Shown here in pieces: positions 4,970 through 61,602 of a stretch of DNA of 64,000 nt. How positions within the stretch are numbered: position 1 is the first letter of the stretch; each line of letters begins with the position of its first letter. The stretch lies in the NCBI GenBank assembly GCA_012517355.1, contig JAAYVD010000117.1, forward strand, positions 1 to 64,000. Reading direction: 5' to 3'. Under the pieces are notes generated by a model. The model did not search any database and was not told where the DNA came from. It was given only the letters and a program-made list of their open reading frames with translations. This DNA comes from Candidatus Rifleibacteriota bacterium. GTDB taxonomy: Bacteria; Muiribacteriota; Ozemobacteria; Ozemobacterales; Ozemobacteraceae. The translations under genes were made by a program, and so were the position numbers.

Positions 4970-7855
4970 ATGACGACGGAGGCTGCCGCGGGGCCGCCCG
5001 CATGCCCCAAGTCCCTGTCGCTCGGTGAGTGGCTGGCGTTCAGTCTCGCCCACGGCGACGAGACCGACCGCCTGCTGGCGATCGAGGAGATCGCCCTCAA
5101 CCCCCATTACTCCGACCTGTTCTCGCGGCTTCCCGGGCTGGCGGCCGCCGATCCCTCCCCGGCCTGCCGCGCGGCGGCCGCGCGGCTCCTGGCCGCCCAC
5201 CAGGCCGGCGAGGAGGCGCGCCGCATCGTGGCCGGCCTCGAGGTCACCGCCGAGATCCTCACCCCCCTCCTCGAAAGCGCCGCTCCCGAGCTGCGTCGCG
5301 AGATCCTGCGGTCGTTGCGCACCCCGCCGCCCGAGGGGCTGCTCGAACTCTGGCGCCACGACCTGTTGCACGGCTGCTCGCTCGAGAAGACCGAGGCCGC
5401 CCTCATCGTCCTGGCCCGCTTCGGCAAGCCCGCCGATGCCGGCTTCGCCCTCGGCTTGCTGTCCGCCGACCAGCCCGAGGTGGTGCGCGCCGCCCTCGAC
5501 CTGCTGTTCGCGCAGAACGCCGACCTGTTCAAGGAGAGCGTCGCCACCGCGCTGGCTTCGGGCCACCCCGCCGTCCGGCTCCACGCCGTCCGGCAGTTGC
5601 GCAGCATCGACCCCGGCGAGGCGGTGAACTACCTCGAAGCCCTGGTGCTGAGCGAGGACCCGCTGCTGCGGCAGCAGGCGGTGCACGAGCTGCTGCTCAT
5701 CCCCTTCCATGCCGCCGAGCCGGTCTCGCTGCGGTTCCTCGGCTCGGAACCGCGCCCGCTTCTGCTGGTGCTGGTCGCCCTCGCGGTCGCCATCAATCCG
5801 CATCCCGACACGCCTCCCAAATTGTTCGACATCATCCTGGTCTCGCGCGGCCCCAAGCGGGCCATCCTGCAGGCCGGGTTCAACCAGCTCCTGGAATGCA
5901 TCAACCAGGCGGGAATCCTGTCGGTTCCCATCGGGGAATACGTCGCCACGCTGAAGGAAGGCCTGACGCGACGGCGCGAGACCATGCTCGTCACCCTCGG
6001 CCTGCGCGACCTCGCCGCCCCCGAGCCCGAGATCCGGCAGGCGGCCGTCGAACGGCTGCGGCCCTTCCTGGGCCGGCCCGAGGTCGGGGAAGCCCTCCGC
6101 CGCCGGCTGGACGCCGAGACCGACGAGGAGACCCGCGCCCGCCTGGCCGCCTTGGTGGCCCCCGCCGCGCCGGAAGCCCCCGCCCCCGGCGCCCCCGGCG
6201 CCCCCCCCGACCCCGCCACGGCCCTGGCCGCCGCGCTGCGCGACGGGACCTTCGGTTCCCTGCCCCTGCCGCGGCAGCAGGGCCTGCTGCGCGCCCTCGA
6301 CACCCCCGACCGGTTCCGCGCCGCCCGCCCCGCCTGGCGTGGCCTGCTGACCGGCAAGCCCCACCGCGCCGTGCTTCTCGAGCTCATCCACCGGTGCGGG
6401 GAACTGGGGGAGCCGGCCGACGTGCAGGAACTGTCCCCCTTCCTGCGGGCCGCCGAGCCGGCGGTCGCGGCGGCTGCCATCAAGGCCTGCGGCCGGCTCG
6501 ACCTCGACCAGCTCCTGCCCACGCTGAACAAGCTGCTGCAACAGGACGACCCCCGCGTCAAGGCCGCCGCCCTCGAGGTCTTCCTGCGCTCCGACAAGGA
6601 GGGCGCCATCCGCTACCTGGCGACGATGGCCCGCTCCGCCCAGCCCGCCATCCGGCGCCAGGCGCTGCACCTGTTCCCGTTGCTCGACTTCCCCTCGGCC
6701 GCCCCGCTGCTCGAGCGGATGTTCACCGACGACCCGCAGGACGACCTGAAGGTGCAGGCCGGCTTCATGATCGCCGCCAACCCGAGCCTGGCCGGCCTCC
6801 AGACCCTGTGCCGGGGCTGCTGCAACGAGCGCGGTGAGCCGCGGGAGGGCTTCGCCGACCTCTGGGAGGCCGCCCTGCAGGGCGCCGCCCCGGTGCTGGG
6901 CCAGGAGGCCAAGACCCTTCGCGAGAACTGCCTGCAGGCGGTTGCGAAGGCGCGGCAGGCCGAGAAGGCGCCCGTCCCGACCTACTCGTTCCGCAAGGTG
7001 GTGGGGAAGACCCCCTACACGGGGGCGGCCGCGCCCCCCCCGGCGGCGGGCGGCGGACTGGTCACCTGGCTGCACGAGCACTGGGGCGCCCTCGTCGTGG
7101 TGGGCCTGATGCTGGCTCCGCTCGGGTGGGTCCTGCTCTTCCCTGCCTCCCCGTCGTTCGATTCGGGCGCGATGCCCGGCGACGCCGGTGGTCCGGGCGG
7201 TTCCGCGCCCACGGCCATGTCGTCGGGGGCCGGTGGCGGGGGGCTGCGCTCGAACGCCGGGGCGGTCCTGGGCGGGCCCGGGTACGCGAAGTTGATGAAG
7301 AACGTTTCCGGGCAGTGCGAGGAGTTCTCGAAGCAGGCGGCCGCCAGGCGCCAGGAACGGCTGGCCGGCCGGGCCGCCGACGAGGGAACGCCGCTTCCCG
7401 AGCGGATGGGCGCCCTGGCCCGGGTGAACCCCGTCCTGGCCCAGGCCCGCTCCGACCTCGACAGCCAGAAGTTCGACGAGGCCCGCGAGGCCTTCCGGAA
7501 GGTGGCCGACGACCCCGGCGCCGGGACGGCCGAGAAGGTCCTGGCCCGGCAGGGGCTGGTCACCATCGCCGTGCGCACCGGCGGCAGGCCTGAGGAAGTG
7601 GGCGCCACCCTCGACGGCCTGGTCGGCGAGGTCGGCAGGCTGCCCGGCTGCGAGATGACGCCGAAGGTGTCCTTCCAGGAGGAGATGCGGAAAGCGGCCT
7701 CCGCGATGCAGGCGTTCAGCGACCCCGGGAAGAAGGACGCGCTGGCCTCGCGGCTGGAGAAGGATCTCTCCCTCGACCGGGCCGAGGCCGGAAAGCGGGT
7801 CGACACGATGTTGCAGACCCTGTCGGGCATCCCGGAAGGAGGACCCCCGCGATGA
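4970..7855 (+). CDS. HEAT-repeat protein with one transmembrane helix
   Basis: This protein has 961 aa. Residues 1 to about 660 are made of alpha-helical HEAT-type repeats, helix pairs rich in Ala, Leu and Arg with repeated P-x-VR and RxxAL patterns. An Ala-Pro linker interrupts them at about 402-415. Two Pro/Ala/Gly-rich stretches flank a single hydrophobic helix at about 703-725. The last 190 residues are helical, with a TPR-like pair (LDSQKFDEAREAFRKV). HEAT arrays are binding scaffolds and no catalytic motif is seen. The stop overlaps the next start by 4 bp (7852-7855), so it is translationally coupled to the PilX-like gene. It may be a cytoplasmic platform for the pilus-like machine, but this is inference from position only. 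The start at 4970 follows GAGGCGAG. Confidence 0.75.
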   Translation: MTTEAAAGPPACPKSLSLGEWLAFSLAHGDETDRLLAIEEIALNPHYSDLFSRLPGLAAADPSPACRAAAARLLAAHQAGEEARRIVAGLEVTAEILTPLLESAAPELRREILRSLRTPPPEGLLELWRHDLLHGCSLEKTEAALIVLARFGKPADAGFALGLLSADQPEVVRAALDLLFAQNADLFKESVATALASGHPAVRLHAVRQLRSIDPGEAVNYLEALVLSEDPLLRQQAVHELLLIPFHAAEPVSLRFLGSEPRPLLLVLVALAVAINPHPDTPPKLFDIILVSRGPKRAILQAGFNQLLECINQAGILSVPIGEYVATLKEGLTRRRETMLVTLGLRDLAAPEPEIRQAAVERLRPFLGRPEVGEALRRRLDAETDEETRARLAALVAPAAPEAPAPGAPGAPPDPATALAAALRDGTFGSLPLPRQQGLLRALDTPDRFRAARPAWRGLLTGKPHRAVLLELIHRCGELGEPADVQELSPFLRAAEPAVAAAAIKACGRLDLDQLLPTLNKLLQQDDPRVKAAALEVFLRSDKEGAIRYLATMARSAQPAIRRQALHLFPLLDFPSAAPLLERMFTDDPQDDLKVQAGFMIAANPSLAGLQTLCRGCCNERGEPREGFADLWEAALQGAAPVLGQEAKTLRENCLQAVAKARQAEKAPVPTYSFRKVVGKTPYTGAAAPPPAAGGGLVTWLHEHWGALVVVGLMLAPLGWVLLFPASPSFDSGAMPGDAGGPGGSAPTAMSSGAGGGGLRSNAGAVLGGPGYAKLMKNVSGQCEEFSKQAAARRQERLAGRAADEGTPLPERMGALARVNPVLAQARSDLDSQKFDEAREAFRKVADDPGAGTAEKVLARQGLVTIAVRTGGRPEEVGATLDGLVGEVGRLPGCEMTPKVSFQEEMRKAASAMQAFSDPGKKDALASRLEKDLSLDRAEAGKRVDTMLQTLSGIPEGGPPR

Positions 7856-10668
7856 CCATCCCGAAGAACCTCTTGAAGAACCTCTTGAAGAACCTCTTGA
7901 AGAGCCCCGCGAAGATGCCGGGATCCTCCGTCCGGCACTCTGCTTCCCTGCCCCCACGGCTCCCCTCCACGAACTCCCCAACTTCCCGGGCCGCCTTGTC
8001 CCCACTTCCCCCTCTTGCCACTTCTCCATCTTCCGGCCCGACCTTATCCCTCCTTCCCTCTTTCGCCACCTTCCCAATTTCCGGTGCAACCTCGCCCCTC
8101 GATACCCCCTTCCCCCGCTCCCCCGCTCCCGCCGCCTTTCCCCTTCCCCGCCTCGCCGCCGCCCCACCTCTCGGTCTTCCCCCTTCCCCGCTTTCTCCTG
8201 TCGCCGCCTCCCGGACTCCCCACTTCCCCCACCTCCGCCGTGGTTCGGCCTTCCTGATCGTGATCGGGGCGCTGGCGGTGCTGGGTATCATCGCCCTGAC
8301 GCTGTCGCGCACGACCGTGATCGGGCGCTGGACGGTGACCCGCTCGAGCCACGAGAAGCGGGCCGAGGAGTGCGCCGAGGCGGCCACCAGCCTGACCTAC
8401 CGCCTGGCGCTGGAGAGCATGAACGACCTCCAGTTCTTCTACAAGGCGCTGCTGAACCCGTCGAAGTTCTTCACCGACGGCTACTGGTTCACCCAGGTCC
8501 GGCTTCCCGCCTTCATGGCCGGGGCCGACATCGACCTCGCCCAGGCGAAGAACCTGATGGGGAACGCGGTGGCCGAAGGGGTCGACCTCCAGCTGAACCT
8601 GACCGAGCCGCTGGTCAAAGCCCTCTACGACGACGGCATCAAGTACCGCTACGAGTTCGACCCGCAGAACAAGGGCCGCGGCGCCCCCGACTTCGTCTAC
8701 CTCGAGCCGCTGCTCGAGTCCATGGGCGGGAAGACGACGATCGTGGTGCAGGCCAAGGTCAACCGGGCCTACGCCATCATGCCCCGGAGCAGCGAATACG
8801 AGGTCGGGGGCATCACCCATTCCCTGGCGCCGATGACGGGCCTTTTAGGCAAGCTGCTCGACTCGGTCAACGCCGACAGCCTGTCGCTCGATTTCGACCT
8901 GCTGTCGCGCCTTTCGGACGAGAACCTGATCGCCAAGGGCATCGAGGACTCGTTGCGCGACATCACCGCCATGTTCGGCGTGCCGCCCGTCCCCATCCCC
9001 ATCGGCCGCATCCTCGAGGCCCTGGGAATCACCCGCATCATCGCCAATGCCGTCGTCGACGCCCTGGGACTCGACGAGTTCTCCCTGCGCGGCCTGGCCA
9101 GGATGGTCTTCGGCGACTCCCTGACGGTGCGGCTCGATCTGAACAACATCAAGCGCAAGATCCAGGACGAGCTCCTGGGATGCCTTCCCGAACAGATCCG
9201 GTTCCTGGTCGGGAAGCTGTCCTGGGGCATCACCATGGAGAAGATCGGCTCGCTCGAGGTGCGCACCCGGGTCGAGTTCCAGCCGAACTTCCCGGGGCCG
9301 GGGCCGACCGTCAAGAAGGTCCTGGTCGCCGAGCGCGAGTTCCGGGTGACCGACATCCAGCCGGTGGCCCCCGACTACACCTTCTTCGTGGCCAATTCCG
9401 ACAAGCTCTACGAGGACGAGTCCGAGCGCGACGGCTGGACCGGCAACCGGCCCATCGACTGGAACGCCGGCGACGGGGCCCTGTTCTGCCACAACATGCC
9501 GTCGATCGGCCAGCTCCTCGATTTCCTGTCGGGCGTGCTCTCGTTCGACCTCGAGGAGATGATGAAGAAGATCTGCCTGCCGGGGCTGGTGCGGGTCAAC
9601 GGCACGCACCAGGGCCGCATCCAGCTCTCGTTCACCCTGCCCTTCAGTCTCGAGAAGCTCAAGCGCAACGAGATCAGCATGCTGGCCATGAACGGCAAGG
9701 ACGTCATCCCCAAGGTCGAGCGCACCGACTGGAACTTCTGGGGCGGCGACGGCTGGGACTGGCCCTGGTTCCAGGGCAGCGGCTGGTGGCTGCCGATGAT
9801 CCCGTCGTTCAACCGCACCTTCCTGTTCGGCAACTTCGACCTGGAGGTCCCCTTCAGCCTCCGGGTCGAAGGCAACCTGGCCATGGTCTACAACCACCTC
9901 AAGATCCTGATGGTCAACATCTGGGTGCCGCCCATCCCGCCGTTCTTCCCCGGGTTCGGGTTCGTCGTCCCCTGGTTCTGGGCCAGCGAGGAGAGCCAGA
10001 CCTACGGGTTCGCCAACTTCCCCCCGGCCGGGTCGGGCGAGGACATGGCCTCCAAGTGGAACCCCGACAACCCCGCCAACTTCCCGCCGAACCTCTACTC
10101 GACCGCGCAGTACCTGAAGAAATCGAACTTCTTCTACGCCAACTCCGAGGAGTTCTGGAACGACCTGCCCAACCGCAGCAAGGAGGTCGATGGCCAGCGG
10201 TGGTTCCTGTGCGACGGGGTCACCTTCATCAACAATCATTTCAGTATTGTACAAGACCTGAAGGTGATGGGCCGGGGCATGATCGTGGCCGCCGGCAACA
10301 TCCACCTGGGGGCCAACGTGCGGCGCCGTGCCGAGGACCACCTGGGGAACACCTCGGTCTTCTCGCTGGTGGCCCGCAACGGCGGGTTGATCAACAACGC
10401 CCCTACCGACGTGACCGTCGAAGCCTGCGTCTACGCCGACCGCGGCCTGTTCAACGAGGGAACCTTCCCCCTGACCATCGACGGCAACCTCGTGGTGAAC
10501 CGGTTCAACCGCGCCGACTGCCAGGGCGACGTCCACCTCCGCTACAACTCCCGGCACGCCCGCAGTTCGCCCCTCGCGCTGCTCAAACCCCTCGCCAAAT
10601 GGGACCCGTCGCGGTTCCACGCCAGCCTGTCGGGGAAGTATCTGACCTTCGAATTCACCAAGGAATAG
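7852..10668 (+). CDS. Large PilX-like pseudopilin-type protein (operon A)
   Basis: This protein has 938 aa. The ATG overlaps the stop of the preceding gene. The first 120 residues are unusual: a triple LLKN repeat and then a Pro/Ser/Leu-rich low-complexity stretch encoded by a pyrimidine-rich tract. After these comes a prepilin-like entry, RRGSAFLIVIGALAV at about residues 127-141, resembling PilX/GspK-type minor pilins. The rest is a large exported domain. Its C-terminal part (about 780-900) has short strand repeats (DLKVMGRGMIVAAGNIHLG) of a solenoid kind. The paralogue at 52197 shares this plan and the DG-x5-F...GRGMI/GKGII motif. The leader is far longer than any usual prepilin leader, so the true start may lie downstream (no better in-frame ATG is obvious) or the leader may be an expansion. 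Its likely role is a minor pilin at the tip of a type IV pilus or type II secretion-like filament. Confidence 0.75.
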   Translation: MTIPKNLLKNLLKNLLKSPAKMPGSSVRHSASLPPRLPSTNSPTSRAALSPLPPLATSPSSGPTLSLLPSFATFPISGATSPLDTPFPRSPAPAAFPLPRLAAAPPLGLPPSPLSPVAASRTPHFPHLRRGSAFLIVIGALAVLGIIALTLSRTTVIGRWTVTRSSHEKRAEECAEAATSLTYRLALESMNDLQFFYKALLNPSKFFTDGYWFTQVRLPAFMAGADIDLAQAKNLMGNAVAEGVDLQLNLTEPLVKALYDDGIKYRYEFDPQNKGRGAPDFVYLEPLLESMGGKTTIVVQAKVNRAYAIMPRSSEYEVGGITHSLAPMTGLLGKLLDSVNADSLSLDFDLLSRLSDENLIAKGIEDSLRDITAMFGVPPVPIPIGRILEALGITRIIANAVVDALGLDEFSLRGLARMVFGDSLTVRLDLNNIKRKIQDELLGCLPEQIRFLVGKLSWGITMEKIGSLEVRTRVEFQPNFPGPGPTVKKVLVAEREFRVTDIQPVAPDYTFFVANSDKLYEDESERDGWTGNRPIDWNAGDGALFCHNMPSIGQLLDFLSGVLSFDLEEMMKKICLPGLVRVNGTHQGRIQLSFTLPFSLEKLKRNEISMLAMNGKDVIPKVERTDWNFWGGDGWDWPWFQGSGWWLPMIPSFNRTFLFGNFDLEVPFSLRVEGNLAMVYNHLKILMVNIWVPPIPPFFPGFGFVVPWFWASEESQTYGFANFPPAGSGEDMASKWNPDNPANFPPNLYSTAQYLKKSNFFYANSEEFWNDLPNRSKEVDGQRWFLCDGVTFINNHFSIVQDLKVMGRGMIVAAGNIHLGANVRRRAEDHLGNTSVFSLVARNGGLINNAPTDVTVEACVYADRGLFNEGTFPLTIDGNLVVNRFNRADCQGDVHLRYNSRHARSSPLALLKPLAKWDPSRFHASLSGKYLTFEFTKE
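7864..7899 (+). repeat. 12-bp tandem repeat (3 units) encoding LLKN
   Basis: Three exact units of AAGAACCTCTTG lie at codons 5-16 of the PilX-like gene. The units are in frame. Confidence 0.9.
7930..8235 (+). repeat. Polypyrimidine low-complexity tract
   Basis: About 300 bp are dominated by C and T on this strand, with many CTTCCC and TCCCC words. They encode the Pro/Ser/Leu-rich leader of the PilX-like protein. The tract differs sharply from the codon pattern of the flanking genes. Confidence 0.7.
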
Positions 10669-10867
10669 GAGGCTGCCCATCCGCCCGCCTGCCGCCCCCA
10701 TCGGCCCCTCCCGAAAGGTCGCTCCCGCCTTCGGGTCCGGGCGTTCGGCCAGGATCGGGGAACGGCCCCGGCATCGGCTCCGGAGCGCGGGGGCCCTGGC
10801 CTACCAGGCGCCGCCAGGCCAGCCCGGACCGGGCCGCACGCCCCTCCCTCCCCCCCCCGCCTGCCCC

Positions 10868-11392
10868 GTGAACCGGCCCGAACCGGGCTTGTCCCCCCGC
10901 CACCGCCCCCCCGGCCGCTGCGCGATCGCGAGAGGACGTGGCGGGCTGAGCATGCTCGAGATCACCCTGGCGGTGCTGATCCTGGCCCTCGGCCTGATCC
11001 CGATCTACCGGCACCTGTCGCGGCAGAGTTCGGTGGCCGTCGAGACCGAGAAGATCCAGATGGCCGACCATCTCCTCGAGAGCATCAAGGAGGAACTGAC
11101 CGGCATGCCCTACGGGAACCTGTACGAGTTCGCCAAGAACGTGCCAAAGGACGACCTCGGCTACCGGCCGCTCGAGGACGGCATGTATCCGCTGACCAAC
11201 GTGAAGGTGCTCGAGATCCAGAAGAAGTTCAAGGACTACACGGTCTCCGGGCGCTGGAAGTTCCTCGAAAGGCCCATCCCGGGCGGGGTCGACACCAGCA
11301 TGACCCAGGTCGAGGCGAAGGTGGCCTGGACCACCGAGACCAGCGACAAGAAGGAACGGACGCGGACCTTCATGCTGATCGCCCCCCGGTGA
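10868..11392 (+). CDS. PilV-like prepilin (operon A)
   Basis: This protein has 174 aa with a GTG start. After a basic leader of about 29 residues comes the type III prepilin signature GGLSMLEITLAVLIL, where G precedes the cut and E is at +5. A 20-residue hydrophobic helix follows and runs into a soluble domain. The prepilin peptidase site fits minor pilins of the PilV/GspI class. The W-like gene follows 13 bp later. The 199 bp upstream (10669-10867) are very GC-rich and hold no better start; the leader is long, so an internal start is possible, but the only downstream ATG falls inside the prepilin motif. Confidence 0.75.
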   Translation: MNRPEPGLSPRHRPPGRCAIARGRGGLSMLEITLAVLILALGLIPIYRHLSRQSSVAVETEKIQMADHLLESIKEELTGMPYGNLYEFAKNVPKDDLGYRPLEDGMYPLTNVKVLEIQKKFKDYTVSGRWKFLERPIPGGVDTSMTQVEAKVAWTTETSDKKERTRTFMLIAPR

Positions 11393-11405
11393 CAGGAGGA
11401 TGGAG

Positions 11406-12470
11406 ATGAGAACGAGAGCGGGCGTGACGTTGATCGAGATCCTGGTGGCCCTGTTCATCCTGACCGGGGTGTCGGGGGCGATCTACTTCCTGGTCCGCGA
11501 CGCCGGCTACCGGCGCGGGTTGGCGTTGTCGCGCACCCAGGCCCAGGCCGATGCGGTCAAGATCTTCAAGGCCTTGCAGGAGGATCTGACCCGGGCGCGG
11601 GCCGGCACCTACGCGGTGCTCGACGTGGCCGCCCCCGAGTTCGGCATCACCCTGCCCGAAGGCCCCGCCACCGTCGCCTACCGCTACGAGCCGCCACGTC
11701 TGGTGCGCACCAGCACCGCCCCCAACCAGATGCGGGAACTGACCCTCAGTGAAAACCTCGAGCGGTTCGCCCTGACCAAGTCGCTGGGCCACCCCGGGCA
11801 GATCCTGGTCGAGATCGTCACCTGCGTGAAGATGGATGGCATGACCGACGCGCAGGCCCAGCGGTTTACCCAGAACCAGGTCATCACCATGCGGGCCGAC
11901 GCCTCGCAGCAGTTCGATTCGCACTGGGTCGATACCGGCCAGTTCGCCGCCGAGTCGGCCGCCCAGGGCTCGGTCATCGCCGGCGTGGCCGCCGACACCC
12001 AGGCCGACGTCGAGAACATCAGCGTGTCGAGCGAGTTTGCCGCCGCCTCGGCCCAGCAGATCGAGGAGAAGATCCAGGAGATCGTCGGCAAGCTGCGCGA
12101 GATCGCCGGCAACCTCGACGAGATCAACCGCAACATCGCCGACGTGCCGCCCCGCAAACTGATCTACGACCCCGGCCGCGGCAGCATCGAGGACTTCCAG
12201 CAGCAGGTGATCGCCGGCCAGGAGGTCAAGGCCGCCTACGTCAACATGAACACCCGCAGTTCCCTCCGCTGGGACCGCTTCCCCGCCATCGCCCACAACC
12301 GCGGCCGCCGCGACGTGAGCGGCGAGTTCCAGTCGTTCTACAACGGCAAGGCCCGCATGTTCGATTCGGGCAAGAAGCTGATCGACCTGCTGCAAGGCGA
12401 GCCCTTCAAGAAGACCGCCGGCCAGATCGAAGGCCTGGTCGGCTCGTCGGTCTACCGCCGGTTCCTTTGA
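11406..12470 (+). CDS. PilW-like prepilin (operon A)
   Basis: This protein has 354 aa. Two ATGs are available (11400 and 11406). The second is preferred because AGGAGG (11394-11399) is spaced correctly for it. The N-terminus MRTRAGVTLIEILVALF is a textbook prepilin site: G before the cut, then V-T-L-I-E with E at +5. A hydrophobic helix follows. A later stretch (about residues 195-250) is predicted coiled coil (EEKIQEIVGKLREIAGNLDEI). It belongs to the PilW/GspJ class of minor pilins. It closes the operon of HEAT protein, PilX-, PilV- and PilW-like genes. The shorter W-like paralogue at 50958 lacks the coiled coil. Confidence 0.8.
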   Translation: MRTRAGVTLIEILVALFILTGVSGAIYFLVRDAGYRRGLALSRTQAQADAVKIFKALQEDLTRARAGTYAVLDVAAPEFGITLPEGPATVAYRYEPPRLVRTSTAPNQMRELTLSENLERFALTKSLGHPGQILVEIVTCVKMDGMTDAQAQRFTQNQVITMRADASQQFDSHWVDTGQFAAESAAQGSVIAGVAADTQADVENISVSSEFAAASAQQIEEKIQEIVGKLREIAGNLDEINRNIADVPPRKLIYDPGRGSIEDFQQQVIAGQEVKAAYVNMNTRSSLRWDRFPAIAHNRGRRDVSGEFQSFYNGKARMFDSGKKLIDLLQGEPFKKTAGQIEGLVGSSVYRRFL

Positions 12471-24255: not shown

Positions 24256-24823
24256 ATCCTCGCCCGGTCATGGCTTCTCCAGCCACGACCGGGACACATT
24301 CCCGGCTGGTGACCGCCGGCGGCATCGCCGCGGCGGCCCGTCCCGTGGGGGAGCTTCTTCCGCCCGCGCCGGCCGGTGGCCGGGCCGTGGCCACCCGGGC
24401 CCCGGTCTTGGTGACCGGCTGGGCGACTGGCCTGGCGACCGGTTTTGCGGCCGGTTTCACGACCGGATGGTGACGGTCGTAGGAATCGAGCGAGGACAAG
24501 CTCTGCTGGATCTCCATCGAGACGACGTCGTCGCTCTGCAGATAGGGGGTCACGCTGAGGGAAAGGCCGACGGGGACTTCCCCGTATTCGATGTTCACGA
24601 CGCCGTTGGTGAACCAGGTGTTCTTCCGGCCGTTCACCTCCTGGCCGACCGTGACCCGGGCCTGTTTGCCGTGGGTGGCCACGATCTGGGGGCTCAAGAG
24701 GACCTTGAAGTCCGTGTTGGTCTCCTGCGCGGACAGGATGTCCTGAACGTCTGGCCGCCGCAAGACTTTGATGGACCGCGGAAAGCGCAGGGAGTTCTCA
24801 CCAGCCGCCACATGGGTCAGCAA
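24083..24823 (-). pseudogene. Secretin (PilQ/GspD-type) domain remnant
   Basis: The first 95 or so residues (24823 down to about 24480) resemble the secretin channel domain. KVLLSPQIVATHGKQARVTV fits the 'SSPRLLTLDNQEA' strand, GQEV is kept, and IEYGEVPVGLSLSVTPYL and EIQQSLSSLDS match the next conserved strands. The final barrel strands (the usual TTVVVKDGQT...GGL region) are missing. They are replaced by a Pro/Ala/Val repeat (KPVARPVAQPV) and a frame that runs antisense into nifS. The N-domains are missing too. It is most likely a 3' and 5' truncated relic of a type II or IV secretin. A minor alternative is a small stand-alone protein. Confidence 0.55.
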
Positions 24824-50167: not shown

Positions 50168-50956
50168 CTAGTTGAGCGCGCGGGCCACCTCGGCGTCGAG
50201 CTCCGCCCGCAGCAGCATCGCCGCCTTTTGCGGCGTGTCGGGGGCGCCGCCGATGGTGGTCCGGATGCGCAGCAACTGCCGCGTCGCCTCCTCGGCGGAG
50301 ATCCAGGCCCCGATCGAATCGGCGTTCATGGCCGGATAGGCCTTCTGGGCCGCCGCCCGCACCCGGCGCATGCACTGGACGAACTTCACCTTGTTGGTGA
50401 TGTACCCGTCGCGGTCCTTGAGCATGAAATAACTCTCGGCCAGCGTGTCGTACAGCTGCGACCGGTGATGCAGGTCGTTCTCGGGAAGGTTGTTCAGCAC
50501 CTCGTGGATGGTGGAGATCACCGCGTCATACCGGCCCGCCGCGAAATAGGCCTTGGCCTCGCTGACTTCCGGAATGTCGACGGCGGCCAGGGTCCGCATC
50601 TCCTCGAACTCGGGAACCCGGCGGGGCTTGATCGGCACCAGATCGGCGGGCATCCGGCTCATCCGGTCGGCCATGTGGCTGGTATAGGCGCCCATCGCCG
50701 CCTCGACTCGCCCCTCGTTGAGGGTCCGCTTGGCCTCCGACACCCGGCTGCTGAACACCGGCGAGTATCCCGGCGACGAGTCGGCGGTGCCGGCCCGCGG
50801 CTTCTTGTAGGTGGCGTAATCGACGTAGATCCGGTCGTGGGCGAACCGCTTGATGTCCGACCGGAAGATCGTGTTCAGGAAATTGTAGACCAGGAACAGC
50901 AGCACGAGGATGAAGATCACCGTCGGCCAGCGTCGTTCTTCGGTGTTGAGGATCAT
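50168..50956 (-). CDS. Single-helix membrane protein at the end of pilus operon B
   Basis: This protein has 262 aa. One transmembrane helix (about 10-31) is near the N-terminus. The rest is helical with TPR-like helix pairs (EAKAYFAAGRYDAVISTIHEVLNNL; YDTLAESYFMLKDRDGYI). It starts 1 bp after the stop of the W-like prepilin gene (TGA-G-ATG) and is therefore coupled to it. It may be an assembly or platform partner of the pseudopilins; operon A has instead a large HEAT protein at its head. Confidence 0.7.
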   Translation of the reverse strand: MILNTEERRWPTVIFILVLLFLVYNFLNTIFRSDIKRFAHDRIYVDYATYKKPRAGTADSSPGYSPVFSSRVSEAKRTLNEGRVEAAMGAYTSHMADRMSRMPADLVPIKPRRVPEFEEMRTLAAVDIPEVSEAKAYFAAGRYDAVISTIHEVLNNLPENDLHHRSQLYDTLAESYFMLKDRDGYITNKVKFVQCMRRVRAAAQKAYPAMNADSIGAWISAEEATRQLLRIRTTIGGAPDTPQKAAMLLRAELDAEVARALN

Positions 50957-50957
50957 C

Positions 50958-51749
50958 TCAGAAGGTCTTGTACTCGTCGGTGGTGCAGAAGTAGCCGGGG
51001 TAGGCCGCCTCCGCCAGGCGCACCCGGCTGTAGAACTTGCCCACCAGATCGAGCTCCTCGTCGCGCCGGTTGCCGACCTCGTCGATCTTGTTGTGGATGC
51101 GCAGGGTGATGAAGGTGGTCAGGGTGGCCTTCTTGGGGTCGGTGGCCGTCACCGGCACCACCTGCACCTTGGGCGGCTCGGTCGGGTTGGTCGTGGTCCG
51201 CTTGAAGACCTGCTGGTACGGCTTGAAATCGAAGTCGGCCACGTCCCGCAGCACCACCTTCTCGAACTTCTCGTTCTCGGTGCCCGAATACTGGGCGGCC
51301 GGCCCCTCCGTGAACACCATCGGGTTGCGGATGAACTTCAGGTAGCCAGGCACCTGCGAGCGTTTCACGGTACCGTCGGTGGACCAGGCATACTCGATCT
51401 TCAGCACGTTGATCGCATACTCGTCGGCCGGCTTGATGGCGCCGTTCAGCGTGTTGAAGAAGATCTCGTCGCTCGGCGTGCGGGTGATCTGGAAACTGTA
51501 GAACCCGAACTTCTTCTCGGCGGGGTTGACGGTGTAGAACCGGTAGGCCGCCGCGACGTCCCGCGCCAGGTGGTCGAGGAAGATGCGGGAATCGGATTGG
51601 ATCTGGCTCTGCGACAGCGTGTGCCGCGTCGTCTCCCGGCCGCCCAGCCAGATCTTCCAGGCGTAGCCCATCAGGAAGGAGATGATCAGGACGGTGATGA
51701 TCATCTCCGTCAGGGTGAAGGTCCGCCGCCAGAAGCTACTTGGGACCAT
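50958..51749 (-). CDS. PilW-like prepilin (operon B)
   Basis: This protein has 263 aa. The N-terminus RRTFTLTEMIITVLIISFLM is a prepilin-like helix with E at the +5 position relative to F; the residue before the cut is T rather than the usual G, which may weaken or alter processing. The beta-rich C-terminal domain is typical of minor pilins. It overlaps the V-like gene by 14 bp. It is the counterpart of the gene at 11406. Confidence 0.75.
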   Translation of the reverse strand: MVPSSFWRRTFTLTEMIITVLIISFLMGYAWKIWLGGRETTRHTLSQSQIQSDSRIFLDHLARDVAAAYRFYTVNPAEKKFGFYSFQITRTPSDEIFFNTLNGAIKPADEYAINVLKIEYAWSTDGTVKRSQVPGYLKFIRNPMVFTEGPAAQYSGTENEKFEKVVLRDVADFDFKPYQQVFKRTTTNPTEPPKVQVVPVTATDPKKATLTTFITLRIHNKIDEVGNRRDEELDLVGKFYSRVRLAEAAYPGYFCTTDEYKTF

Positions 51750-52200
51750 ATTTCACCACCACCGTGCCGAAGCCCAGGCTGAACTCCCGGTCGGGTTCCC
51801 GCCACTTGATCTCCAGTTCGATGCGGTACTTCTTCGGGTTCTTGTCGTCGTCGGCATCGGCCGAGACCTTCGTCTGGAACCGCTTGTAGTAATCCGGAAA
51901 CTCCATCGAGTCGGGGTCGCTCTCCACCAGCCGGCCCGACACTTCCTTGAAATCGTGGAACAACCCGGTCGGTTCCCGGTTCTCCTGGATGATGCCGTCG
52001 AAACCCAGCGCCCGGATCTCGTCGATGATCGTCCGGCCCAGGCTTTGCGCCACCATCAGGTTCTTGGCCTGCGCGGTGGTCTTCTGGCTGCTCTGGAACA
52101 GCACGATCAACGGCAGCAGCCCGAACGAGAACACCACCAGGGTCATCAGCAGTTCCGGGGTCGTGAACCCGCGCTGGCGCCGCCGTCGGGCGAGGATCAT
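51736..52200 (-). CDS. PilV-like prepilin (operon B)
   Basis: This protein has 154 aa from the ATG at 52200, which overlaps the upstream stop by 4 bp. The leader MILARRRRQRG ends in G, then FTTPELLMTLVVFSFGLLPL, a type III prepilin helix with E at +5. It has a soluble beta-rich domain. Counterpart of the gene at 10868. Confidence 0.82.
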   Translation of the reverse strand: MILARRRRQRGFTTPELLMTLVVFSFGLLPLIVLFQSSQKTTAQAKNLMVAQSLGRTIIDEIRALGFDGIIQENREPTGLFHDFKEVSGRLVESDPDSMEFPDYYKRFQTKVSADADDDKNPKKYRIELEIKWREPDREFSLGFGTVVVKYGPK

Positions 52201-54575
52201 TGGCTGGCCCCCGAGAAGAACAGGTGTTGGATCTTCGGGCTCAGGAAGACGGAATGGACCATCAGTTCGTCCTTCTCGTCGTAGTCGACCTTGATGTTGA
52301 ACACCCCGTTCCCCGCGTCGGCGAAGTAGAACGGGCTCTGGATGTCGTGGAAAATCCACAGATCACCGTCCAATCGGGCCTTCTTCACGAAGAAGTTCAC
52401 GTAATTGCCCAGGATCGAGTTCACCTTCGACTGCAGCTGGTTCATCTTCTCGGAGGTGAACGCCGTCTTCCAGGTGGCCGGCGTTGCCGCCGGGTCCATG
52501 CCCAGGGTGCGATAGTCGTCGTCCTCCAGGACCCCGCTGGTGGTGCGGACCCCGGCCAGGGAAAAGACCGAGGCCTGGATCACCTTGCCATACCCGTCGA
52601 TGACCATCTGCGCCCGGTCGAAATCCGGCCAGCCAATGCGTCCCGTCGACTTCTCGATCTGCACGGGGTAGAAGGCCAGGGTCAGGTGGCTGGTCGCCCG
52701 GTGGGCCGGGTCTTTCAAAATGCTGCCGCCGATCACGAAGTTCCCGTCGGGGTTCGTCTCGGTGTTGTACATCCCCACGTAGATGATGCCTTTGCCACGA
52801 TACAGCACGTCGCCCCGGGTGATGAACGAGTCGAGCGAGTAGCAGCCGTCCAGCACCCAGGTCTTGCCGTCGACGGGATCTTTGGGAATGTCGTCCACGC
52901 TCTTGAGCCGGATCGTCGTGACCTTGTTGAAGTCCTTGTAATTGGTCGGATACAGGTTCAGGTGGTTCTTCTCGTCGATGCCGCCCGGCACCGACGGGTC
53001 CTTGGGCTGGAAGATCGCCCGGATGCCCGCCTCGATGCCGGTGTAGGCCCACCGCGCCGGGAAGGAGACCACGTTCCAGCAGGCCAGACCGATCTTCTTG
53101 AAGAACTCCCCGAACTTCTCGCCGAAGCTCTCGGGATTGCGGTGGTTGCCGTAGCAGACCGAAAACTCGGGATACCGCTCGACGGGGAACCCCGACTGCA
53201 TCACTTCCCCGGTCTTGACCAGCTTGAATTGCAGCGTCTCGGCGTAGATCTTCGTCTCGTCGTCATACTTGGCGTCGCTCTCGACCCACCGGTGCTCGAG
53301 CCGCAGGTGCGGGTCGGGCTCCGGCCAGTCCTCGGCGATGCGGTTGGGCTCGAAGTAGGCCGGCACCCGGTCGGGCACGTACCGCCAGGGGAACCGGCAG
53401 TAGGGGCCGGCCGGCAGAAACAGCTGCTTCACCCGCTTGCCCCGCACGTAGTCCTTGGTCGTCGAATCCCCGTAACTCGACAGGAAATCGCCAATGCTCT
53501 CCCAGATGCTGCTGCCACCCTTGGGGATGAACCCCTTGATGTAGGTGTGATGACCGAACATCTTCCTCTCGCTTTCGGTCATGTTCGCCTCGTTGAAGTC
53601 GTTCATCGTTTCCTTCAGGATGTCGTTGCCGAACAGCTTCTTCGGCTCCCAAAGCGCGCGGGCGGGGAAGGGGAGATACGACAGGCCGTTGTAGGTCACG
53701 CTGTACTGGTAGGCCTGGTTCGCTCCTGGCCGCCCATTCGGGTCCTTCCGCGTGAAGGCCCACTGGTAGGCGGGCTTGTCGGTCGGGGCGTAGTCGGGGT
53801 TCTCCAGGCCGATGACCGCCGGCCCGTGCACGTAGACCCGCGACTGGTAGGGGTGGTTCCACAAAATCAGCCGGCCCTTGCCCAGCTGGAAGTCGTTCTT
53901 GATTTCGGCCTGGTGGTTCCGGGGGTCGGGCCCGAAGATGGTGAACATCGTGTAGTTGCGCCCGATCGGCCCCACGTTGACGATCTTCATGTCGCGCGTG
54001 ATCTGGAACAGGAACTTGTGGGCCTTGGTGCCGTGCTTGAACCCGACCGTGACGTCAATGCCCAGGCTCAGCTGGTAGTCGAGCGCCATCTCGCTGTTGA
54101 GCGAGTCCTTGCGGTCCTTGGGCTTGTAGATGCAGGTGGGCAGGTTGACCGGCCGGCAGTCGATCGGCCGGTAGTCCATGATCTTCGCCCGGATCTTCTC
54201 GATGAAGAACCCCGCCCGCGTCATGTGCCGCGAGATCAGGTCGTTCGTCTGGGTCACATAGGGGGCGAAGTCGGGCAGGATGTCGAGCAGGCTGGGGTTG
54301 AGGGCGGTCTTGTCGGGGAAGAACTTCGCGTCCTTCCCCTGCCGCAGCAGGGGCCCCATCTTCCCCGCCTCGCTCGGGTCGCGGAACATCTCCTCCAGCG
54401 ACAAAAACACCTCGTCGGCCGCTGCCTCGGCGATCTGCTGCGACATCGTCGCATACACCGACATCGCCGCCTGCGAATACTCGACCGAACTGCTCTGCAT
54501 CAGGAACAGGCCCATGAAGGCCAGCAAACCGAGGATGAGGACGGCGATGATGTAGGCAAAACCGCGCCTAGCCAT
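52197..54575 (-). CDS. Large PilX-like pseudopilin-type protein (operon B)
   Basis: This protein has 792 aa from the ATG at 54575, with GGAGGACTC before it; the longer frame from 54617 lacks a ribosome site. The short leader MARRG is followed by FAYIIAVLILGLLAFMGLFLM, typical of PilX/GspK-type minor pilins. A very large exported region follows. Near the end (about 590-690), GCYSLDSFITRGDVLYRGKGIIYVG and NFVIGGSI resemble the corresponding part of the 938-aa paralogue in operon A. PilX proteins are normally about 200 residues, so both paralogues are greatly enlarged. Confidence 0.8.
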   Translation of the reverse strand: MARRGFAYIIAVLILGLLAFMGLFLMQSSSVEYSQAAMSVYATMSQQIAEAAADEVFLSLEEMFRDPSEAGKMGPLLRQGKDAKFFPDKTALNPSLLDILPDFAPYVTQTNDLISRHMTRAGFFIEKIRAKIMDYRPIDCRPVNLPTCIYKPKDRKDSLNSEMALDYQLSLGIDVTVGFKHGTKAHKFLFQITRDMKIVNVGPIGRNYTMFTIFGPDPRNHQAEIKNDFQLGKGRLILWNHPYQSRVYVHGPAVIGLENPDYAPTDKPAYQWAFTRKDPNGRPGANQAYQYSVTYNGLSYLPFPARALWEPKKLFGNDILKETMNDFNEANMTESERKMFGHHTYIKGFIPKGGSSIWESIGDFLSSYGDSTTKDYVRGKRVKQLFLPAGPYCRFPWRYVPDRVPAYFEPNRIAEDWPEPDPHLRLEHRWVESDAKYDDETKIYAETLQFKLVKTGEVMQSGFPVERYPEFSVCYGNHRNPESFGEKFGEFFKKIGLACWNVVSFPARWAYTGIEAGIRAIFQPKDPSVPGGIDEKNHLNLYPTNYKDFNKVTTIRLKSVDDIPKDPVDGKTWVLDGCYSLDSFITRGDVLYRGKGIIYVGMYNTETNPDGNFVIGGSILKDPAHRATSHLTLAFYPVQIEKSTGRIGWPDFDRAQMVIDGYGKVIQASVFSLAGVRTTSGVLEDDDYRTLGMDPAATPATWKTAFTSEKMNQLQSKVNSILGNYVNFFVKKARLDGDLWIFHDIQSPFYFADAGNGVFNIKVDYDEKDELMVHSVFLSPKIQHLFFSGASQ

Positions 54576-54629
54576 GAGTCCTCCTTTGACCGATAACCTG
54601 AAGCCAGATCCCATCAACGTTTGTCCTTA

Positions 54630-54658
54630 AGTGTAACATACCCCACCCACCCCGTCAA
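54630..54658 (-). promoter_or_regulatory. Strong promoter of pilus operon B
   Basis: On the minus strand, TTGACG (54658-54653), 17 bp, and TACACT (54635-54630), 55 bp before the start at 54575. Confidence 0.75.
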
Positions 54659-54728: not shown

Positions 54729-55985
54729 CTAGGATGGGGACACCAGGTTCTCCAAGGGGTGGATGCGATACGCCTGCCAGGCCGGGACCAGGGCCGCCAC
54801 CATGCCCAGGACCACTACCATCGGGAGCAGGACATGGTCGACCGGACCCCAACACCAGGGATCGATCTCCAGGCCCGCTTCCGCCCGGAAGACCGGAGCC
54901 CCCGCTCCCAACATCCCGTGCCCCCCAGCCAGGCCCAGCAGGCCCCCGGCCAGGGAGAGACACACCGCCTCGGCCATGATCAGGCCGAAGACCCATCGCC
55001 GGCTGGCCCCGAGGCACCGCAGGAGGGCATAGTCCCGCCGGCGCTCCCGGAGAACCCACAACAGGGCGACCAGCAGGAACAGGGTGCCGATGAGCACCAC
55101 CAGGCCGGCGATGCCAAGGACGAGGTGATCGACCCACCCGATGATGCTGAACAACTGGGGAAGGACCTCGTTGGGAAAGATCACCTGGGCCCGGGGATCC
55201 TTCCTCAGCGCATACTGAAGGTCCTTGAGGCCAGGATGGAGCAGGTCCCCGCGAATCCGGCGGATCTTCAGCAGAGCCCCGGAGACCTCCCGGTGGCCAT
55301 GGTCGGTGAGCATCTCCCGGGTTTCCTCGCCGTGCCCCTCCAGCGTGAAAAAGTCCTCCAGGGGAATGTAGATGGCCCGGTCGTGGGGAGTCCCGGTCCT
55401 GGCCATGATGCCGACGAACGTCAGGGTCGTCCTCCCGTGGACGGGAGCCCCTTCGGTGACGCCACAGGCGGGGGAAAAGGTGTCGCCCAGCTTGATCCCC
55501 AGCTTCCGTGCCGCCTCCCAGCCGGCCACCGCCTGGTGTCGGGCGCCCGGGGGAAACCCCCGTCCCTGCCCGCCCCCGGCCGCGTCGAAACCGATCCCCC
55601 TTCCCGGCTGGATCTCCAGGTCGGTGAAGAAGGAGGGATCGATCGCGTTCACCCGCACCCCGGCGTAGGAGTGCCCCGAAATGAAAGGAATGACGGCGGT
55701 GACCACGGGATTCCGTCTGATCTCCTCGATCGTCTGCCAGGGAATGGTCCCGGGCATCTCCTCCAGATGGTAGAGGGAGTTCAACACGATCTGCAGCGGC
55801 GACCCCCGCGGGCCGACCACGGCATCCACCCCAAGGCCCACGCGCAGGAAAAACCGGTGGGTCTGTTCCCGGAGCGAAACCGTCGCGGTCATGAGGGCGA
55901 CTCCCAGAGCAAGGCTCAGGACAGCCGCCAACGACGAGAGGGCGTGTCGTCGCAGGGAATGGACCACCAGCTGGAAGAAACTCAT
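54729..55985 (-). CDS. FtsX/MacB-type ABC transporter permease
   Basis: This protein has 418 aa. One N-terminal membrane helix (about 18-38), a periplasmic domain (about 45-290), and three C-terminal helices (about 295-410) form the MacB/LolC topology. RERRRDYALLRCLGASRRWVFGLIMAE is the coupling-helix signature, and the end LVPAWQAYRIHPLENL is typical. It works with the ATPase encoded just upstream (4-bp overlap), likely moving or extracting a substrate at the outer face of the inner membrane rather than importing. The substrate is unknown. Confidence 0.9.
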   Translation of the reverse strand: MSFFQLVVHSLRRHALSSLAAVLSLALGVALMTATVSLREQTHRFFLRVGLGVDAVVGPRGSPLQIVLNSLYHLEEMPGTIPWQTIEEIRRNPVVTAVIPFISGHSYAGVRVNAIDPSFFTDLEIQPGRGIGFDAAGGGQGRGFPPGARHQAVAGWEAARKLGIKLGDTFSPACGVTEGAPVHGRTTLTFVGIMARTGTPHDRAIYIPLEDFFTLEGHGEETREMLTDHGHREVSGALLKIRRIRGDLLHPGLKDLQYALRKDPRAQVIFPNEVLPQLFSIIGWVDHLVLGIAGLVVLIGTLFLLVALLWVLRERRRDYALLRCLGASRRWVFGLIMAEAVCLSLAGGLLGLAGGHGMLGAGAPVFRAEAGLEIDPWCWGPVDHVLLPMVVVLGMVAALVPAWQAYRIHPLENLVSPS

Positions 55986-56704
55986 CCGCCTTTCCTCCCG
56001 GGCTCCGCGGTCGCCCGGTTGAGATCGAAAATGGAGACCCGCCGTCCCACGCGGTCCACGGTCGCCGGGTCATGGCTGACCACGACCAGGGTGCACCCCT
56101 TCGTCGCGGCCAGCCGCAAGAACAGGTCCATCGTGTTCCGGGCGTTGGTGGGGTCCAGCGAGGCGGTCGGCTCATCCGCCAGCAGGATGGGTGGCGAATG
56201 GATGACCGCCCTCGCCGCCGCCACCCGCTGCTGTTCCCCTATCGACAGGCGGGCGGGATCCTGGCCGGCCTGGTCGGCCAGGCCGACCTGGGAGAGGACC
56301 TCCATGGCGTCTTCGCGGCGGATCGTCTTCCCGGCAAGGGTGCCGGCCAGGAGCAGATTGTCGATGACCGGCAATCCCTGGAAGAGATTGAAGGCCTGGA
56401 AGACCAACCCGATCCGGTGGGCCCGGAAGGCGTCCCGGCCCGCCTCCGAGAGGAGATCCAGGCGGACGCCGTCCACTTCCACCTCCCCGGCTTCGGGAGA
56501 GAGGAGCCCTGCCAACAGGTGCAGCAGGGTGGACTTGCCCGTTCCCGAGGGGCCGACGATGGCGACCTGTTCGCCGCGGGTCACGGAGAATCCGGGAATA
56601 TCCAGCAGAAGGCGCGGTCCGTTGGCGCCGGGAACGGAATACCGGCATTGGCGGATGGCGAGAAGCGTCTGGTCCGGGGAGCCGCTGGGGGACGCCCCGC
56701 TCAT
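55982..56704 (-). CDS. LolD/MacB-type ABC transporter ATPase
   Basis: This protein has 240 aa. Walker A is GPSGTGKST (about 50), the signature is LSIGEQQRVAAARAV, Walker B is ILLADEPTASLD and the switch is VSHDPAT. Signature residue two is I rather than the usual S-G-G core, as seen in some LolD relatives. It powers the permease encoded 4 bp downstream. Confidence 0.92.
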   Translation of the reverse strand: MSGASPSGSPDQTLLAIRQCRYSVPGANGPRLLLDIPGFSVTRGEQVAIVGPSGTGKSTLLHLLAGLLSPEAGEVEVDGVRLDLLSEAGRDAFRAHRIGLVFQAFNLFQGLPVIDNLLLAGTLAGKTIRREDAMEVLSQVGLADQAGQDPARLSIGEQQRVAAARAVIHSPPILLADEPTASLDPTNARNTMDLFLRLAATKGCTLVVVSHDPATVDRVGRRVSIFDLNRATAEPGRKGG

Positions 56705-58296
56705 TTCGCCCCCAGCTCCCGCAGCAACCCGGTCATGGAGGCGTTCCGCTCCTCGGCCGCCAGTTCCAGGAGGGTTCGCCCGCCCGTGGTCCGGGTTTCG
56801 ACCGAAACCCCCCCTGTGATCAGCTCCCGAACCGCCTCCGGAAGATTATACCGGACGGCGAGATGGATGGGGAACTCCCCCTTCCGGTTGGGAAGGTCGA
56901 CCCGCGCTCCCCTCCTGAGGAGCCACCGGGCCATTTCCCCCTTGCCGTTGGCAATGGCCCAGGCGAGAGGCGTGAAACCCCTGGAGTCCTGGACGTCGAG
57001 GTTGGCACGATGCCTGGCCAGGACTTCCATGGTCTCCAGCTGACCCGCTTCGGCGGCGGCGTGGGCGGGGGTCCGGTGTTGGTGGTTCCGGGCGTCGACC
57101 TGGGCCCCCAGCGAAGCCAGGAACCCCGCTTGCTCGACGAACCCGAAGCGGGCCGCCAGGTGCATCGGAGTGTTTCCCTCCGGGTCCCGGGATTCCAGGT
57201 TGGTTCCTCCCCGCCACAGCAAGTGCAGGCCGGGAAGGTCGTTGGCTTTCGAAAACTGCAGGATCAGGGGGACCGAGGCCACCTCTGACCGGAGGGGATC
57301 GTCATAGGCATCCCTCAGAGAGGTGAACGTGGCGTCCCTGACCCGCAGAAAGCCTTTGGTCCGCCGGTCCGGCGCGGGAACTTCCTCGACCACCCCCACC
57401 AGTTCCCCGCTTTTATGCCACGAGGCAGGGATGGGGGCGCCACTGGCGAGACGGACCTGGATGGAATTGAAGGGGTCGGGGGGAATGCCAGTGCAGCATC
57501 CGTCCCAGGCGAATCTTCCCAGGACCAGGTCCCCATTTTCCCGTTGCCCTTCGGGGCCGACCAGGTTCCCCTTCAATCGCCCCACTTTCCCGAGGAATCC
57601 CGACCAGGAGGCCGGGAGAGCCATCTCCTCGATCCCCTTTCCTGCCAGCCCGTGCAACAACGAGGCAAAATCATCCCAGAGGTCCAGAGCCAGGGCTTCC
57701 GAGCCCAGGGAGGTGGGGCCGAGAGGGATGGGCATCTCGGGCGCGGGAAGGACCTCCTGGGCCTCCATCCGGTAGATGTACCCGTCCTGCGGGGATGGTT
57801 CGACGAAAAAGGTTCCCCGGGCGGTGACCGGTCGGAACCGGACGAATGGCGTCGGTTGGGGGATTTCCACGAGGACGTACTGGTTGAACTGGGGACGCGG
57901 TCCGTAACAGCAGGTCTGGGTCGTGGCCATCAGCATGAAAGCTTTGATCAGATCCCCTTCCTGGAGCGGGAACATGAAGCCAGTGAGCTGGGCGGACCGA
58001 CCATGCCGGGCGGTGATGCCCGAGGGGGGGGGCCGGTCCGGCCGGTCGGCCTGGAAATCCCACTGTTTCAACTGGGAGAACAGGAGGAGGTCTTCCTCCC
58101 CGGCGATGCCGCCTTCCCGGACGCCGATCGAAAAGTGGCCCGTGGTATCTTCCACCGGCCCGACGGAAACAGGCCCGGCACCGCGGGTTGGCCCCGGACA
58201 GGCCAGCAGGACCGCCACCAGGCACGCCAGGACCGCTCCCGTTCGGGGAGGGCCTCCTGGGCCCGGCCGTATGCTGTGCGGGGCGCTTTTCCTCAT
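56701..58296 (-). CDS. Secreted protein with two DUF3299-like modules and ankyrin repeats
   Basis: This protein has 531 aa from the ATG at 58296, which overlaps the upstream stop by 4 bp. The signal peptide ends near residue 38. Two DUF3299-type modules follow. In the first (about 70-190), GFMFPLQEGDLIKAFMLM leads to the CCYGPRPQFNQYV motif. In the second (about 225-320), FAWDGCCTGIPPDPFNSIQV repeats the Cys-Cys/NxxxV pattern. After about 370, four to five ankyrin repeats follow (DPEGNTPMHLAARFG, HQHRTPAHAAAEAG, SRGFTPLAWAIANG, RKGEFPIHLAVRYN, GGRTLLELAAEE). DUF3299 proteins often neighbour MacB-type transporters, as here. The paired cysteines could bind a metal; that is inference. Confidence 0.82.
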   Translation of the reverse strand: MRKSAPHSIRPGPGGPPRTGAVLACLVAVLLACPGPTRGAGPVSVGPVEDTTGHFSIGVREGGIAGEEDLLLFSQLKQWDFQADRPDRPPPSGITARHGRSAQLTGFMFPLQEGDLIKAFMLMATTQTCCYGPRPQFNQYVLVEIPQPTPFVRFRPVTARGTFFVEPSPQDGYIYRMEAQEVLPAPEMPIPLGPTSLGSEALALDLWDDFASLLHGLAGKGIEEMALPASWSGFLGKVGRLKGNLVGPEGQRENGDLVLGRFAWDGCCTGIPPDPFNSIQVRLASGAPIPASWHKSGELVGVVEEVPAPDRRTKGFLRVRDATFTSLRDAYDDPLRSEVASVPLILQFSKANDLPGLHLLWRGGTNLESRDPEGNTPMHLAARFGFVEQAGFLASLGAQVDARNHQHRTPAHAAAEAGQLETMEVLARHRANLDVQDSRGFTPLAWAIANGKGEMARWLLRRGARVDLPNRKGEFPIHLAVRYNLPEAVRELITGGVSVETRTTGGRTLLELAAEERNASMTGLLRELGAK

Positions 58297-60717: not shown

Positions 60718-61590
60718 TCAGGCCCCGGCCTCGCCCAGGCCGTGCAGGAAGCTGGCCGACAACTGCCCCACCGCCACCTCCTGGATTGGTCCGGTCATGA
60801 ACAGCACCCCGCGCTCGTCCTGGGAGATGACCAGGTCGCCCCCCGGCATGTGGATCGTCACGGGGGAGGTCAGTTTCCCCAGCTTGATCCCGGCCGCCGC
60901 CACCGCGGTGGCGCCGGTCCCACAGGCCTGGGTCATGCCGCAGCCGCGTTCCCAGACCGTCACCTTCGCCTCCTTCGGCGACTGGATTTCGACGAACTCG
61001 ACGTTGATCCGGCGCGGGTGGTTGGGATGCACCTCGAGCCAGGCGCCCAGGGCGATCATCTCGTCCTGGGTCAGGGGGGTGGTCAGGAACAGCATGGCAT
61101 GCGGATTCCCGATGTTGACGTAGACGGGCTCGAGGGTCTCCTCCTGCCAGTGCAGGGGCTTGCGGTCCTTGGCCGGCAGCAGCTCTCCCGTGGCGGTGAG
61201 GTCGAAGGCCGGCTTTCCCATCTCGACCCGGTACTGGCATTTCCCGTCTTTCACCGTGCCGGCATGGATCTCCTTGACTCCGCTCAGTGTCTCGATCAGC
61301 AGCGGTTCGTGGCCGAGATGGTGCTGGCGGTAGAGGTGCGCCACCCCGCGGATGGCGTTGCCGCACATCTCCGCCTCGGTGCCGTCGATGTTGTACATCT
61401 GCATGCGACAATGGTGCTTCTTGTCGCGCGGCGGCTGGATGAAGATGACGCCGTCCCCGCCCAGGCCGCGGCCCGCACTGCACAGCAGGCGCAGGGTCCG
61501 GGGGTTCTTCAGGACCGACAGGTCCTGGCCGAGCTCGTCGAAGAAGATGAAGGAATTGCCGAGACCGTGCATCTTGTGGAACCCGAACAT
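60718..61590 (-). CDS. dapF: Diaminopimelate epimerase
   Basis: This protein has 290 aa. Both catalytic cysteines are present: EMCGNAIRG (about 75) and the second in QACGTGATA (about 227). The start FHKMHGLGNSFIFFDEL is typical. It converts LL- to meso-diaminopimelate for lysine and peptidoglycan synthesis, with a two-base cysteine mechanism. It is 12 bp downstream of the membrane protein gene and may share its transcript. Confidence 0.96.
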   Translation of the reverse strand: MFGFHKMHGLGNSFIFFDELGQDLSVLKNPRTLRLLCSAGRGLGGDGVIFIQPPRDKKHHCRMQMYNIDGTEAEMCGNAIRGVAHLYRQHHLGHEPLLIETLSGVKEIHAGTVKDGKCQYRVEMGKPAFDLTATGELLPAKDRKPLHWQEETLEPVYVNIGNPHAMLFLTTPLTQDEMIALGAWLEVHPNHPRRINVEFVEIQSPKEAKVTVWERGCGMTQACGTGATAVAAAGIKLGKLTSPVTIHMPGGDLVISQDERGVLFMTGPIQEVAVGQLSASFLHGLGEAGA

Positions 61591-61602
61591 GGGTGCGTCT
61601 CC

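Follow-up and report, generated by a model that had tools for sequence, protein, structure and literature searches.

The window analyzed here, 64,000 nucleotides long (positions 1 to 64,000 of contig JAAYVD010000117.1 in assembly GCA_012517355.1), lies in the 7.11-Mb draft genome of a Candidatus Rifleibacteriota bacterium of the family Ozemobacteraceae and carries on its minus strand a four-gene operon (50168-54575, operon B) encoding three pseudopilin-like proteins, designated X, V and W, as well as a tetratricopeptide repeat (TPR)-like companion. Sequence comparison indicates that, within its family, B is conserved as an orthologous module present essentially once per genome. We read its products as an inner-membrane minor-pseudopilin complex whose most likely role is to prime and cap a type IV filament from a machine encoded elsewhere, with the many cassettes of this kind in the genome probably sharing few machines, and put the probability of this reading at about 0.55. 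B is regarded as one of many tip or priming complexes because three pseudopilins, one of them without the glutamate at position 5 (Glu5), correspond to the recipe of a tip complex, and in view of the minor-pilin/PilY1 clusters of Myxococcus xanthus.

All four open reading frames (ORFs) of B are open and coding-like and stand where they had been predicted, in the order X, V, W and TPR-like, with gene starts that are approximate since the gene caller was a simple codon model built for this analysis. X_B (52197..54575, minus strand as are the others) comprises 792 amino acids and combines an N-terminal pilin-type helix without Glu5, in the PilX/GspK-like position, with a large periplasmic part that includes a GKGII C-terminal region. 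V_B (51736..52200) is a PilV-like pseudopilin and W_B (50958..51749) a pseudopilin in the GspJ/PilW position, both with a prepilin motif containing Glu5, and the companion (50168..50956) has one predicted membrane helix at about residues 13-31 followed by a TPR-like region. A ribosome-binding site recognizable by its sequence (AAAGGAG, 54581..54587, minus strand) precedes X, and the spacing within the operon is tight: V and X overlap by 4 bases, W and V by 14, and the ATG of the companion lies 1 base past the stop of W. The leader of X_B is short and normal, as the original prediction had described it (MARRG^FAYII). V and W exhibit the short basic leader, cleavage motif, Glu5 and hydrophobic helix of type IV pilin-like proteins, and the residue before the W cleavage site is T in the window copy and mostly G or A in relatives. 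Glu5 was kept in every aligned row of V (13 rows) and W (18 rows). An X without Glu5 beside two pseudopilins that have it, which we used to recognize a GspK/PilX-like position, is thus found in B; since the absence of Glu5 was also part of the rule used to search for paralogues, this observation is independent only for B. The prepilin model PF07963 was matched by all 18 W orthologues (E<=0.1), the window copies of V and W scoring 17.5 and 16.0 bits against a cut-off of 21.2. Similarly, TIGR02523 (PilV) was matched by 13 of 13 V orthologues at E<=0.1, with 28.2 bits for V_B, below the curated cut-off of 52.2. No Pfam or NCBIfam model matched X_B, and profile searches of the PDB returned nothing for X, chance-like matches only for V and pilin N-termini for W.

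The conservation of this module was examined across the phylum. A search with X_B gave matches in 29 of 39 genomes, comprising 23 of the 24 from its own family and, weakly, 6 of the 15 others; the sole family genome lacking one has a completeness of 64%. X_B is present in essentially one copy per family genome, some copies being split or cut at contig ends, and its nearest named relative, from Candidatus Ozemobacter sibiricus (Riflebacteria), is 83% identical. At all 20 fetched loci, out of 22 other family loci of which the two omitted lie at contig ends, X, V, W and the TPR-like gene follow one another in this order with the companion in fourth place, although in a few of them a contig end truncates X or the TPR gene. 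An X gene standing alone in relatives without V and W, which would have spoken against the original prediction, was not encountered at any of them. Trees were built from 70 V, 70 W and 69 X sequences, the last from a very divergent alignment, and in each of them the members of B form one clade (21 V, 21 W and 20 X sequences, support 0.98 to 1.0). The assignment of the companion as TPR-like derives mainly from its relatives: the window protein stays below the Pfam TPR cut-offs, 11 of 16 orthologues match TPR_2 at E<=0.1 (best 5.7e-5), and the companion profile matches designed TPR chains at 7e-10. The AlphaFold model of the companion was poor, with a predicted local distance difference test (pLDDT) score of 46.2.

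A family of such cassettes had been suspected in this genome, and it proved to be real and understated. At least 55 X/V/W triplets were identified, 49 by rule and 6 by inspection, and these numbers are lower bounds because only the stretches around known pilin matches, namely those to PF07963 and the PilV model, were read. PF07963 has 107 matches in the genome at E<=0.001 and 137 at E<=0.01, and 30 to 121 in the other 38 genomes of the phylum. The rule found 56 triplets, of which six were dropped as mis-assigned (L083, L089, L096, L107 and two in L119), followed by L143, the X of which is unconfirmed; L107 and one of the L119 sets re-entered with corrected roles, and L143, which is outside the 49, was kept among the 50 cassettes used for distance and paralogy counts. 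Eight further candidates were inspected and six were added because homology of their X was clear (E about 1e-11 or better); the other two (the first set of L119 as well as L096) had no X homology and were not counted. The genes occur in the orders X-V-W, V-W-X and V-X-W, and X reaches at least 480 amino acids in 34 of the 49 cassettes. The GspK model NF037980 was matched by 9 of the 49 X proteins at E<=0.1, and one X paralogue, whose operon is linked to machine genes, matches GspK over its full length (E 1.6e-28).

The cassettes were mostly duplicated as units. Among 38 with an X paralogue of at least 50 bits, V had its best partner in the cassette indicated by X in 29 cases and W did so in 26, while shuffles gave a mean of about 0.8 and none of 10,000 reached the observed values; the shuffles ignore relatedness among cassettes, and the result is therefore strong, yet no formal probability. 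Tandem multiplication is seen at L099 (contig C134, 6000-20000), where three X-V-W cassettes follow in a row on one strand and two of the X proteins share 50% and 37% identity with the third. At L085 (contig C149, 52000-63000), similar prepilin genes encoding about 230-250 amino acids and with strong prepilin motifs stand in a row, and a secretin match and a platform-protein gene lie nearby.

Genes for assembly machinery are few in the vicinity of these cassettes. A T2SSE, T2SSF or secretin match lay within 10 kb of only 2 of the 50, which argues against one filament per cassette, and no gene matching an ATPase, platform protein or secretin was found within operon B or within operon A, the second pseudopilin operon of the window (4970-12470, plus strand, about 38 kb from B). 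Genome-wide we counted 34 T2SSE-family matches, some of which are probably retraction ATPases, 30 T2SSF domain matches corresponding to about 13 platform-protein genes by our own grouping, and 8 secretin matches. The original prediction had proposed separate filaments or substrates on account of two diverged cassettes, and the different companions of A and B would also suit separate filaments. That each operon provides a complete filament with its own shaft now appears very improbable, given the lack of machinery genes in both and the fact that the machines seen are too few for a set of over 50 cassettes. The distribution would rather suit many alternative tip or priming complexes on few machines. 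Two other stretches with machinery matches were noted in and near the window. At 24473-24730 on the minus strand, half a secretin domain (positions 1-89 of 169, E 1.6e-12) lies in a 257-codon open frame in which no gene was called, possibly a remnant, and just past the window (contig C13, 71700-76808) an ATPase, a secretin and two platform domains are matched at short distances from one another, as in a Tad-type cluster.

The 48 of 50 cassettes without nearby machinery could also be explained by free-standing envelope complexes, in which the prepilin helix would be only a membrane and processing signal and no filament would be formed. Such complexes would agree with the companions of A and B, both of which are repeat proteins with a membrane helix, and with the weak matches of several W proteins to families named Verru_Chthon, the function of which is unstated in the model names. 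However, Glu5 packs against the neighbouring pilin in filaments, and it is retained in every V and W row. The combination of two Glu5 proteins with one lacking it is, moreover, the composition of known tip complexes, and we consider free-standing complexes decidedly unlikely. Another explanation starts from the type II secretion system (T2SS), since the genome encodes one complete T2SS-like operon that includes a true GspK (L102) as well as another of similar kind (L095). Each cassette would then be the substrate-recognizing tip of a T2SS-like pseudopilus, with the various X proteins each selecting different exported enzymes and a few machines pushing them out. One T2SS, however, usually serves many substrates with one tip, and no gene for an exported enzyme is consistently linked to B, the neighbours of which in relatives are PNPase, DapF and a few others. 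This explanation is accordingly unlikely, albeit the strongest of the alternatives considered.

In the tip and priming complex that we favour for B, X would take the GspK/PilX place at the tip, with V in the GspI/PilV and W in the GspJ/PilW place. GspK and PilX lack Glu5 and are located at or near the tip according to PMC7541494, and XcpX is described as the top of the XcpUVWX complex in PMC6211770. The large outer part of X may serve as an exposed tip domain meeting a surface or substrate, and the TPR-like protein, anchored by its one helix, as a dedicated assembly or docking partner. Together they would prime and cap a type IV filament from a machine encoded at another locus, B being a conserved, essentially single-copy member among at least 55 cassettes sharing a few machines. 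While the gene order, its conservation, the promoter, the pilin motifs, the joint duplication of the genes and the paucity of nearby machinery are observed, the common complex, its place at the tip, the shared machines and the part played by the TPR-like protein are inferred. Several points weigh against this. By sequence, X_B matches no GspK (NF037980), PilX or solved structure, and its AlphaFold model failed (mean pLDDT 28.6, 4 sequences). Unlinked machinery is no proof of sharing, as the 34 ATPase-family matches could serve more systems than assumed, and a pseudopilus confined to the periplasm could have this architecture as well. An extended form of the proposal, which we offer tentatively and would sooner bet against than for, is that genomes of the Ozemobacteraceae each encode more than 50 interchangeable pilus tips, namely X-V-W complexes, many with a large exposed X and some with a repeat-protein partner, competing for a handful of type IV machines, and that B is the constitutive housekeeping tip loaded by its TPR protein. 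Separate substrates or tips for A and B are possible.

The sets of A and B are related, albeit distantly as judged from their sequences. Operon A consists of a companion with HEAT repeats, a predicted helix near residue 706 and a TPR-like tail (4970..7855), X (7852..10668), V (10868..11392) and W (11400..12470), all on the plus strand; the frame of its X is open from 7852, and the true start is uncertain because the pilin-type helix begins near residue 131. Pairwise BLAST between the operons was weak (X E 0.003, V E 0.002, W E 0.006), and profile comparison paired V_B with V_A (P 95) and W_B with W_A (P 96) better than crosswise (12 and 62). X_B and X_A align over 62 N-terminal columns (P 89, E 2e-6) and over a C-terminal region of 141 columns (hhalign P 82, E 1e-5). 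The GRGMI/GKGII segment that had been recognized as shared is part of this longer region; apart from these two regions one short block aligns, weakly. The claim that both operons encode the same enlarged X is therefore to be read as distant homology and not as close similarity. The predicted paralogy of the operons is reflected in the X and V trees, which group A and B with few others. This grouping is approximate, with two foreign sequences inside in the V tree (support 0.89) and one, a T2SS-type GspK, in the X tree (0.84), and in the W tree A and B do not group. Similarly, a group of five around A is intact in the X and V trees and broken in the W tree.

The contrast that had been drawn between the companions is real, with a TPR-like protein at the end of B and a HEAT protein at the head of A. 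However, the HEAT protein likewise has one predicted helix along with its TPR-like tail. In other families of the phylum X-like proteins are found beside prepilin genes, in many cases together with a companion that has a membrane helix and in some with a HEAT protein, and the outgroup locus L159 has both companion kinds in one cluster (HEAT gene, X, 269-amino-acid companion, V and W in a row). In hhalign comparisons the B companion reached P 62 against those of L098/L101, which in turn reached P 71 against the HEAT tail of A; with P 2.5 for B against the HEAT tail directly, these signals are weak and one family for the companions of A and B is not claimed.

Upstream of X_B a sigma-70-type promoter is predicted (TTGACG-17-TACACT with TG before the second hexamer, 54630..54658, minus strand), in line with the promoter originally proposed for B. 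The scan found this single site against 0.6 expected from shuffles, and its hexamers and spacing are conserved in 4 of 4 aligned genomes while the surrounding DNA diverges. In the window, genes for an ABC permease and ATPase and for an ankyrin-repeat protein (54729-58155) separate the promoter from its usual neighbour, which adjoins directly in the two closest relatives, and the promoter has stayed with X. Downstream of B, convergent PNPase and S15 genes were found in 11 of the 20 fetched loci, with 6 loci being different and 3 running off the contig. A TPR protein (g62667), a small secreted-type protein and DapF (60718-63998 in the window) accompany B in many relatives and are possible functional partners.

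Among known systems, we take the Verru_Chthon families to represent a cassette of Verrucomicrobia, repeated in the genome, which consists of a large PilX-like protein and several prepilin-type proteins in the order A-B-C-D. The likeness to these families (TIGR02596, TIGR02599, TIGR02600) is weak, since of 18 W_B orthologues 11 match protein C and 7 match protein D (E<=0.1). Protein A was matched over its first 63 or so N-terminal residues in 20 of the 39 phylum genomes; no genome of the 39 exceeded its curated cut-off of 332.3 bits, none of its matches in our genome reached E<=0.01, and none of the 49 X proteins matched the NCBIfam model at E<=0.1. By this test B is not a Verru_Chthon member, because the matches mostly cover those 63 residues and never pass the cut-off, and the TPR-like fourth gene further sets it apart. 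Our search for literature on Verru_Chthon cassettes found none. B resembles the GspI-GspJ-GspK set of the T2SS in having two Glu5 pseudopilins and one without Glu5. It differs from that set in the 792 residues of X_B with no GspK match, in the K-I-J-like order and in the absence of an H gene and of machine genes from the operon, and the genome has a true GspK elsewhere.

A further parallel is provided by Myxococcus xanthus and its relatives, which likewise have several stand-alone minor-pilin clusters per genome. M. xanthus is reported to have three minor-pilin/PilY1 clusters, for which a role in varying the properties of pilus tips has been proposed (PMC7541494), and six is the largest number of PilY1 genes per genome among 67 myxobacterial genomes (PMC13190605). 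Compared with these figures our genome differs in having at least 55 triplets, with a large X. A search for PilY1 gave no match in our genome, nor did any of 14 control genomes match either, so that it had no positive control. Should the cassettes be alternative tips, a single bacterium would have about nine times as many tip sets as the largest myxobacterial PilY1 number (six) and could serve as a test case for how a pilus machine picks its tip, the question raised by the three M. xanthus clusters. If they are not tips, a large orphan pseudopilin family still needs a function in a phylum whose pili are hardly described; no paper on its pilins turned up in the library searched. As a single-copy operon present across the family, B would make a well-defined point of departure, and annotation libraries could take up the X family, as yet unnamed, and the TPR partner. 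Multicopy pseudopilin cassettes as such are already known from other bacteria; the present case differs in its X family, its TPR partner and how many cassettes there are.
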